The translations under genes were made by a program, and so were the position numbers. The notes beneath the pieces are model-generated. The model worked only from the letters and a program-made list of their open reading frames with translations. It searched no databases and was not told the origin of the DNA. Of a DNA stretch of 48,082 bases, positions 10,820 to 25,210 are shown one piece after another. Source of the stretch: an uncultured Paracoccaceae bacterium (GTDB lineage: Bacteria > Pseudomonadota > Alphaproteobacteria > Rhizobiales > Rhizobiaceae); assembly GCA_937873685.1 (NCBI GenBank), contig CALMYO010000201.1, positions 1-48,082 on the forward strand, given 5' to 3'. Within the stretch, counting starts at the first letter, position 1. Each line of letters starts with the position of its first letter.

Positions 10820-11274
10820 CCCGCAAGCAGAAACGGCTTGCAATCATCTGCGCCGGCGCGGTGGTGCTCGGCCTGTCTGCCACTCTGGTGCTGACCGCGC
10901 TCCGCTCCGAGATCGTGTTCTTCCGCACTCCGACAGAAATCGTCAACGATCCGTCGATCGCCAACGGTCGCTTGCGCATCGGCGGGCTCGTCAACCAAGG
11001 ACCCGTGGTGCGTGGCGAGGGGGAGCGCGTGACCTTCGCCGTCCACGACACCGAACACGAACTCAAGGTGACCTATGTCGGCATCCTGCCGGACCTGTTC
11101 CGCGAGGGGCAGGGGATTGTCGCCGAAGGCACCGTGCAGCCGGACGGCACCTTTACCGCCGACACCGTGCTCGCCAAACACGACGAAACCTACATGCCGC
11201 GCGAAGTGGCCGATGCGCTGAAGGAAAAAGGCGTATGGCAGGGACAGGGTGAAACCACGGGGGCGACCCGATGA
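10816..11274 (+). CDS. ccmE: Haem chaperone CcmE (CycJ)
   Basis: A 152-residue protein with one N-terminal membrane anchor (about residues 8-28) and a periplasmic OB-fold. The haem-binding site is visible as H122 in LAKHDETYMP, with Y126 completing the HxxxY motif. CcmE receives haem from CcmC, binds it covalently through the histidine and passes it to CcmF. It overlaps ccmI upstream (ATGA) and ccmF downstream by four bases, so the three are translationally coupled. The length is normal for the family and nothing unusual is seen. Confidence 0.95.
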   Translation: MTRKQKRLAIICAGAVVLGLSATLVLTALRSEIVFFRTPTEIVNDPSIANGRLRIGGLVNQGPVVRGEGERVTFAVHDTEHELKVTYVGILPDLFREGQGIVAEGTVQPDGTFTADTVLAKHDETYMPREVADALKEKGVWQGQGETTGATR

Positions 11275-19944: not shown

Positions 19945-20616
19945 ATGAAGATTCTTGTGATCGAGGATGACCGCGAGGCGGCCGGATACCTGAGGAAGGC
20001 ATTCGGCGAAGCGGGCCATGTGGTCGATCTTGCCCATGATGGCGAGGACGGCGCGGCGCTGGCCTTCGCCAACGGTTACGATGTACTGGTCGTCGACCGC
20101 ATGTTGCCGAAGCGCGACGGCCTGTCCATCGTCTCGGCGTTGCGTGCCGCAGGCCGCACCACGCCGGCGCTGATTCTCTCCGCCCTCGGGCAGGTCGATG
20201 ATCGCGTCACCGGCCTGCGCGCCGGCGGTGACGACTACCTCACCAAGCCTTACGCGTTCTCCGAGTTGCTCGCCCGCGTCGAGGTGCTGGCGCGGCGCGG
20301 CGGCGGCCGGGAGGTCGAGACGCTCTACCGCGTCGGCGATCTTGAACTCGACCGTTTGTCGCACTCGGTACGCCGCGCCGGCCAGGACATCCCGCTGCAG
20401 CCGCGCGAATTCAAGTTGCTGGAATACCTGATGCGTCATGCCGAGCAGGTGGTCACCCGCACCATGCTGCTGGAAAACGTCTGGGACTACCATTTCGACC
20501 CGCAGACCAACATCATCGATGTCCACGTGTCGCGCCTGCGCTCCAAGATCGAGAAGGGCTTCGACAAGCCGCTGCTCCACACCGTGCGCGGCGCCGGCTA
20601 CGTGATGCGCGACTGA
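19945..20616 (+). CDS. OmpR-family response regulator
   Basis: A 223-residue regulator. The receiver domain shows D8/D9, phospho-acceptor D51 in VVDRMLP and K101 in LTKPY. The winged-helix domain ends HVSRLRSKIEKGF and TVRGAGYVMRD. It is closest to the CusR/TctD-like branch by feel, but the signal is unknown. It starts 164 bases after degP and its kinase follows after 8 bases. The order degP, regulator, kinase, glnE matches what I know from rhizobia. Probable targets include degP or envelope stress genes, by position only. Confidence 0.88.
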   Translation: MKILVIEDDREAAGYLRKAFGEAGHVVDLAHDGEDGAALAFANGYDVLVVDRMLPKRDGLSIVSALRAAGRTTPALILSALGQVDDRVTGLRAGGDDYLTKPYAFSELLARVEVLARRGGGREVETLYRVGDLELDRLSHSVRRAGQDIPLQPREFKLLEYLMRHAEQVVTRTMLLENVWDYHFDPQTNIIDVHVSRLRSKIEKGFDKPLLHTVRGAGYVMRD

Positions 20617-20624
20617 CCGGACCG

Positions 20625-22282
20625 ATGCGCCTTCGCGCCATCATGCGGACCACGGCGGCGCGGCTCTCGGCGCTGTATCTCGTGCTGTTCGCGGTCTGCG
20701 CGGTTTTCCTCGTCTTCTACATGACCGCCCTATCGGTCGGCTTCCTGCTCAACGAGACGCGGGCGACCGTGGCGGCGGAAGTGGCCGAACTGGGCTCGGT
20801 CTACGGGCGTGGCGGCATCCGCGGGCTGGTGCGCGCCATCGACCGTCGCTCGCGCCAGCCGGGCGCCAACCTCTACCTCGTCGCCGATCCCACCGGCCGC
20901 ATCCTTGCCGGCAATGTCGAGGCGCTCGATCCCGGCATACTCGACAATGAGGGCTGGACAGCGGAACCTTTCCGGTACCAGAGATTTGGCGAGCAGGCGG
21001 CCGGGGATCGTCCGCGTGACTTCCAGGCCGTGGCGCAGGTCATCGGCCTGCCGAACGGCATGCGCATTCTCGTCGGGCGCGATCTTGGCGAACCGGCGCG
21101 CTTTCGCCTCGTCGTGCGTCGCGCCTTGATCGCCGCGCTCGGCGTGATGGGGCTTGGCGCGCTCGCTATCTGGTACTTTGTCGGCCGCAACGCGCTGAAG
21201 CGCATCGACAGCGTTTCCGACGCCAGCCGGCGCATCATGGGCGGCGATCTCGCCGGCCGCCTGCCGGTGACTGGTTCAGGCGACGAATTCGACCGCCTGT
21301 CGGAGAACCTCAACGCCATGCTCGGCCGCATCCAGACCCTGAACGAAGGGCTGAAGCAGGTCTCCGATTCGATTGCCCATGACCTCAAGACGCCGTTGAC
21401 GCGCCTGCGCAACCGGGCAGAACAGGCGCTGGCCGTCGGCGAGGGCGACGAGTGGCGCGGCGCGATGGAAAAGGTGGTCACAGAGGCAGACCAGCTGATC
21501 GCCGTCTTCAACGCCTTGCTGATGATCTCGCGCGTGGAGGCGGGCTATTCGGGCCAGGAACTGACACCGATCGACCTTGCCGCGATCGCGCGCGAAATCG
21601 GCGAACTGTACGAACCGGTTGCCGAGGAAGCGGGGATTGTCCTGCAAGTCGATGCGCCGGGCGCGGCGATGGTGCGCGGCAGCCGCGAGTTGGTCGGCCA
21701 GGCGCTGACGAACCTGATCGACAACGCGATCAAGTATGCAGGGCGGGCCCCGGAGTCCGAATGCAATCCGGGCTTCGCATCCGGTGAACAACCCCCACCC
21801 CTGACCCCTCCCCTCAAGGGGGAGGGGAATGACATCCTTACAGTCGCGGCGGAACTCGCTGACACCGTCAAGGTTGGCGAGTCGCAAGGCCCGGCGCTTG
21901 CAGTCCCCCTCCCCCTTGAGGGGGTCCGAAGGACGGGCGAGACCGTTGGCTCGCCCCAAGAGGGGTGGGGGTACCCTAACCGAACCGCGAGTCGGGAGAG
22001 CGGAGAGAAGGCCCGGATCTGCCTGACCGTGCGCCATGCGTCCGACGCTTGTGAAATTTCCGTCGAAGACAACGGCCCCGGCATCGCGGAGGCGGATCGC
22101 GAGCGCGTGCTGGAGCGTTTCGTGCGGTTGGACGAAAGCCGCAGCAAGCCCGGTTCCGGTCTTGGCCTCAGTCTCGTGCGCGCCGTCATGCGCCTGCATG
22201 GCGGCGCGATGCGGCTGGAGGATTCGACGCCCGGCCTGCGCGTGGTATTGCGTTTCCCCAAGGGAGTTGAGGGGGACAAGGC

Positions 22283-22286
<4 letters not shown>
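20625..22286 (+). CDS. Sensor histidine kinase with a palindromic repeat inserted in its ATPase domain
   Basis: A 553-residue membrane kinase, about 80 residues longer than usual. TM1 lies at about residues 15-45, the periplasmic part follows, TM2 lies near 165-188, then HAMP and H252 in AHDLKTPL. The ATPase domain begins normally with the N box (NLIDNAIKYAG near 362-373), but the G1 box (VEDNGPGIAEADR) comes only at about residue 480. The extra segment, rich in PPPLTPPLKGEG- and PLPLEG-like peptides, is encoded by a repeat at 21791-21972 that keeps the frame open. G2 (GSGLGLSL) is intact. The stop overlaps the glnE start (ATGA). Whether ATP binding survives is unknown; loops at this site can tolerate inserts. 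Confidence 0.88.
21791..21972. repeat. 182-bp palindromic repeat inside the kinase gene
   Basis: The outer ends ACCCCCACCCCT (21791-21802) and AGGGGTGGGGGT (21961-21972) are exact inverted repeats. Inside, two GC hairpins (around 21806-21830 and 21902-21923) contain the CCCTC..CAAGGGGGAGGG type core seen at other repeats in this window. This is the build of rhizobial intergenic mosaic or palindromic elements, but it sits within a coding sequence and adds about 60 codons plus flanks. Confidence 0.85.

Positions 22287-25210
<2,924 letters not shown>

Follow-up and report, generated by a model that had tools for sequence, protein, structure and literature searches.

A palindromic repeat family with copies in frame within protein genes of a rhizobium-like bacterium, one of them in the ATP-binding domain of a sensor histidine kinase

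Results

The window, that is, the whole stretch of 48,082 nucleotides that was analysed, carries a sensor histidine kinase gene that adjoins the gene of its OmpR-type response regulator and whose stop is overlapped by glnE (Table 1). The order DegP-like protease, response regulator, kinase and glnE was kept in 37-38 of the 38 loci examined. The HAMP, HisKA and HATPase_c domains were recognised by Pfam and the H, N, G1, F and G2 boxes are all intact, with HATPase_c interrupted between the N box and the G1 box. As a reading of the sequence alone had proposed, the frame stays open from end to end of the gene (553 aa), insert included, and the coding parts before and after it keep their codon bias.

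The same sequence-only reading had considered the segment between the N box and the G1 box overlong, which agrees with the orthologue alignment: the kinase has 110 residues there, whereas 24 orthologue sequences, a few of them from one genome obtained by two routes, have 23-27 (median 26). The difference amounts to 84 extra codons (252 bp), and none of the orthologues, the nearest of which is about 66% identical, has the additional segment. Since the length of this loop varies among orthologues, the edges of the insert are uncertain by a few codons. The solved structure of CpxA has about 10 residues where the kinase has about 100. As RNA, the kinase segment had a folding energy of -151.7 kcal/mol (z = -5.6 against dinucleotide shuffles), and none of the 200 shuffles was as stable.

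Table 1. Features of the kinase locus and of the inserted DNA (positions in the window)
Feature	Position	Strand	Basis or remark
OmpR-type response regulator, partner of the kinase, adjoining and conserved	19945..20616	+	ORF list, synteny
Sensor histidine kinase gene (HAMP, HisKA, HATPase_c), bearing the insert	20625..22286	+	553 codons; ORF, Pfam, nearest structures CpxA
Extra DNA, ~252 bp (84 codons)	21741..22000	+	Absent from orthologues; orthologue alignment
Left flank of element, extra relative to orthologues	21748..21790	.	No further copy in the loci searched
5' arm, perfect match to the family arm ACCCCCACCCCTGACCCCTCCCCTCAAGGGGGAGGGG	21791..21827	+	Genome arm search
Hairpin within 5' arm, 9-bp stem, 5-nt loop	21805-21813/21819-21827		Inverted-repeat search
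Core (spacer)	21828..21905	.	Matches no other site in this genome
3' arm, inner part, pairing perfectly with 21810-21827	21906..21923	-	Inverted-repeat search
Second repeat type, 37 bp (GTCCGAAGGACGGGCGAGACC...GGCTCGCCCCAAG), splitting the 3' arm	21924..21960	.	Related copies elsewhere
3' arm, outer 12 bp	21961..21972	-	Inverted-repeat search
Right flank of element, extra relative to orthologues	21973..22000	.	No further copy in the loci searched
glnE, overlapping the kinase stop	22283..25210	+	ORF list; synteny conserved

The copy in the kinase is a composite, with a perfect 5' arm and a 3' arm interrupted by a second repeat type. The 12-bp inverted ends recognised earlier from the sequence (21791-21802 and 21961-21972) are exact and form the outermost portion of the arms, but the extra DNA extends beyond both of them; nested within these ends lies an inverted pair of 18 bp that is 100% complementary. 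Likewise, the 182-bp repeat proposed in that reading does belong to a palindromic family, but the 182-bp string is not its unit, as ordinary copies measure about 150 bp and this one is longer because 37 bp split its 3' arm. Relatives of this 37-bp segment were found on three other contigs of the genome (C179, C206 and C83) and on Rhizobium and Phyllobacterium plasmids. The core matches nothing else in the genome, and its capture from another site there was rejected. The predicted peptides encoded by the insert include GEGNDILTVAAELADTVK.

In the AlphaFold model of the kinase, built from only 10 sequences, the ATP-binding domain keeps the usual order of its elements, with residue 372 as the last of the N-box helix and 463 as the first of the strand that follows, and residues 374-460 have a pLDDT below 50. 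Averaged over ten residues, pLDDT was about 22-43 in the insert and about 70-89 in the domain core. Foldseek matched the model to CpxA and other kinases, which together with the preserved order suggests that the insert is most likely a floppy, disordered loop on a folded kinase whose fold is predicted to be intact.

A genome-wide search with the 37-bp arm (ACCCCCACCCCTGACCCCTCCCCTCAAGGGGGAGGGG) returned 47 matches per strand with at most 3 mismatches, and none with the reversed control, in a draft of 298 contigs, 4.1 Mb and 92% completeness. The arms, each of which is itself a hairpin, occur in facing pairs, and most of the 46 copies span 146-153 bp end to end. The repeat recurs in other genes and in intergenic regions. 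The arm ends in GGGGGTA followed by variable bases. A T precedes the arm in 31 of 46 copies and an A follows it in 36, far above the expectation from composition; the window copy itself has an A on either side, and the bias is weaker in the relative G103. Comparisons with Rfam gave chance matches only, all under the gathering score.

The arm was present in 32 of the 151 family genomes. Among these, G103 has copies with these arms whose cores are well conserved and fall into at least two sorts (loci L212-L251), in what appears to be a recent expansion. Core similarity exceeded the 99.9% shuffle level in 174 of 253 pairs in G103 and in 56 of 861 pairs in the genome studied here. In G103 the resemblance of the cores from copy to copy is recognisable, so copying involved the whole unit there; the copies in our genome either are older or have cores that change faster than the arms. 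Within a pair, the two arms differed by 1.17 mismatches in this genome, compared with 1.72 between pairs, a closeness reached in none of 10,000 shuffles, and the closer matching within copies was not significant in G103 (p = 0.24). A RAYT transposase was considered as the mobiliser and rejected: no Y1_Tnp match was found in this genome (at its 92% completeness) or in 11 of 12 arm-bearing relatives, and the twelfth, G080, has a Y1_Tnp gene yet no arm near it.

About 11 of the 46 copies, roughly a quarter, lie in frame within recognisable genes, a count that leaves out elements that precede a probable start codon (C144 and C277). Besides the kinase, at least nine further genes are hosts: putA, the cisplatin-response DNA ligase gene, ygfZ, cobN (with two copies), cobH/cobL, and genes for a CocE-type hydrolase, a PRK04334 protein, a dual ABC ATPase and a MoeA/MocA-type protein. 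The insert is absent from orthologues in all four genes aligned (kinase, putA, DNA ligase and ygfZ), and HMM matches flank it in cobN, the CocE/NonD hydrolase and the PRK04334-type gene. One copy sits between both ATPases of the dual ABC protein, another in the reading frame joining cobH to cobL, and one additional cobN copy at a contig edge; the MoeA/MocA-type host was assigned by inspecting its upstream part. All 10 copies with two coding flanks are read through in one frame. A randomly chosen frame passes an element without a stop in about 37% of cases, so the in-frame set represents survivors of selection and is no proof of design. The typical insert of the family encodes about 50 residues, against 84 in the kinase. 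None of the 28 copies in G103 was in frame within a gene with long coding flanks, so the intragenic habit is not general to the family. In ygfZ (L169:1036-2199), the gene's frame runs through the element in the arm frame that a TGA usually closes; this copy has CCCCCTGCCCC instead, and the stop is gone.

A second palindromic family, CGTC-tagged (CGTCATCCCGGGGCTTGTCCCCGGGATC), was also observed, with 34 + 33 copies in this genome (for example L170:10683-10766 and 11004-11087). Several of the host genes named above also contain it in frame, where it encodes SSRGLSPG...GPGDKPRDDG peptides. Contig C107 (locus L170), 14 kb with cobalamin genes, has four arm-type elements, which amounts to strong clustering (Poisson P of about 2e-5), and four CGTC-type dimers; its cobN gene contains two arm-type elements and one CGTC dimer in frame. 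On the same contig, cobH and cobL form one frame of 812 residues (L170:9920-12355), in which two CGTC dimers and one arm-type element make the join; this reflects either a fusion made by the repeats or a lost stop.

Discussion

Among palindromes within protein genes, those of the small Rickettsia and Wolbachia genomes are the most familiar; elsewhere, scattered REP cases are known. The sequence-only reading had likened the kinase segment to the in-gene palindromes of Rickettsia, in a rhizobial-type genome, and this likeness is supported as one of behaviour by orthologues without the segment, other copies within genes and conserved synteny. RPE-1 and its relatives are palindromes of 105-146 bp with inverted ends, some with terminal TA, that occur between genes and in frame in conserved genes (Ogata 2000, 2002; PMC2229807). 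The first report covered 19 genes, and one product, guanylate kinase, was active with altered affinity, as a passage of PMC2229807 relates citing Abergel 2006; R. conorii also has RPEs ending in CGTC (PMC3733652). Compared by form only, our family shares with RPEs a multi-copy palindrome of 100-150 bp with inverted ends and in-frame insertion in conserved protein genes, but the host belongs to a different order, the CGTC tag of the R. conorii elements is lacking, and the copy in the window exceeds RPEs in length and is composite.

Other repeats resemble the family in part. GTAG/CGTC REPs and their dimers are known from within genes, one of them for a DNA ligase, in several bacteria, with inserts mostly of 20-30 residues and up to 82 (Di Nocera 2013, PMC3733652). 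They have head-to-head hairpins as in our family, and the 9-bp stem and 5-nt loop found here fit the CGTC REP range (8-9 bp and 4-5 nt), whereas our arms measure 37 bp, carry no GTAG or CGTC tag and give inserts of about 50 residues. REPINs have two conserved inverted ends and a less conserved spacer, fold into a single hairpin and replicate as a unit (Bertels and Rainey 2011, PMC3116915); paired inverted arms around a less conserved spacer are common to both, although REPINs are extragenic and associated with a RAYT transposase, in contrast to the substantial intragenic share and the lack of RAYT matches in our case. Bacterial MITEs (Correia/NEMIS, ERIC, RUP) of 100-200 bp have inverted ends and terminal TA, and some are fused in frame to genes (PMC2229807); the T-before and A-after bias is shared with these TA-ended elements. 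The encoded peptides and the arm sequence were absent from the literature searched, in which no coding palindromes in alphaproteobacteria were found either. We class the family as a new member among the palindromic repeats that occur within protein genes, and file it neither as an RPE nor as a REP.

We hold with good confidence that a small non-autonomous palindromic element was inserted in frame into the kinase gene, that the resulting loop is tolerated and that the kinase probably works. An element of about 150 bp, made of two inverted 37-bp hairpin arms and a fast-changing core, would have entered the ATP-binding domain at the point where the N-box helix gives way to the following beta strand, moved by a transposase acting in trans; a second repeat type would later have split its 3' arm, and flanking DNA would have been gained. 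As two of the three frames of each arm lack stop codons, some insertions leave the gene open. The insert would be translated, its in-frame position within a loop would make it tolerable, and its effect on activity would be near neutral; we propose that it has persisted because it is barely harmful. Most likely the gene encodes a functional kinase to which a disordered loop of about 84 residues has been added, and that the protein works is what we infer from these observations.

The position of the insert in a catalytic domain, with a frame that remained open despite a second insertion, could also indicate that the loop was co-opted and now adjusts ATP binding, the choice of partner or how stable the kinase is. 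We find this unlikely, considering that the same family sits in unrelated enzymes, that cores are mostly unrelated between genes and that the segment is predicted to be disordered; moreover, the RPE-bearing guanylate kinase of Rickettsia is read in the cited passage as neutral to slightly harmful (PMC2229807). Inactivation seems quite unlikely as well: for a young pseudogene whose frame is open by luck, the conserved boxes are still intact along 553 clean codons, codon usage is kept on either side, the gene remains embedded with its regulator and glnE, and at least nine other genes have the same in-frame pattern, even if the insert is large, lies within the ATP-binding domain and would pass in a given frame in about 37% of cases. 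That a repeat was misjoined into the kinase during assembly would be conceivable in a draft of 298 contigs, given that repeats break assemblies, but it is very unlikely here, since both halves of the kinase and the neighbouring genes continue correctly and in frame, and the core and flanks were unique in what was searched, which a repeat misjoin would not readily yield.

A broader proposal, which we regard as doubtful, is that, in this lineage, a palindrome family new to the literature and independent of RAYT has remodelled conserved proteins again and again by adding disordered loops of about 50-85 residues, and that the two arms of each copy are kept matching, while the core turns over, through a process acting on the folded hairpin, such as conversion or template switching between arms, and not through selection on the sequence.

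Overall, the family places about a quarter of its copies in frame in a rhizobium-like genome of 4.1 Mb, a catalytic domain included. Intragenic copies in such a bacterium make the effects of these inserts on enzymes testable without an obligate intracellular host, and the family invites the question of how hairpin repeats manage to spread in the absence of a RAYT transposase.
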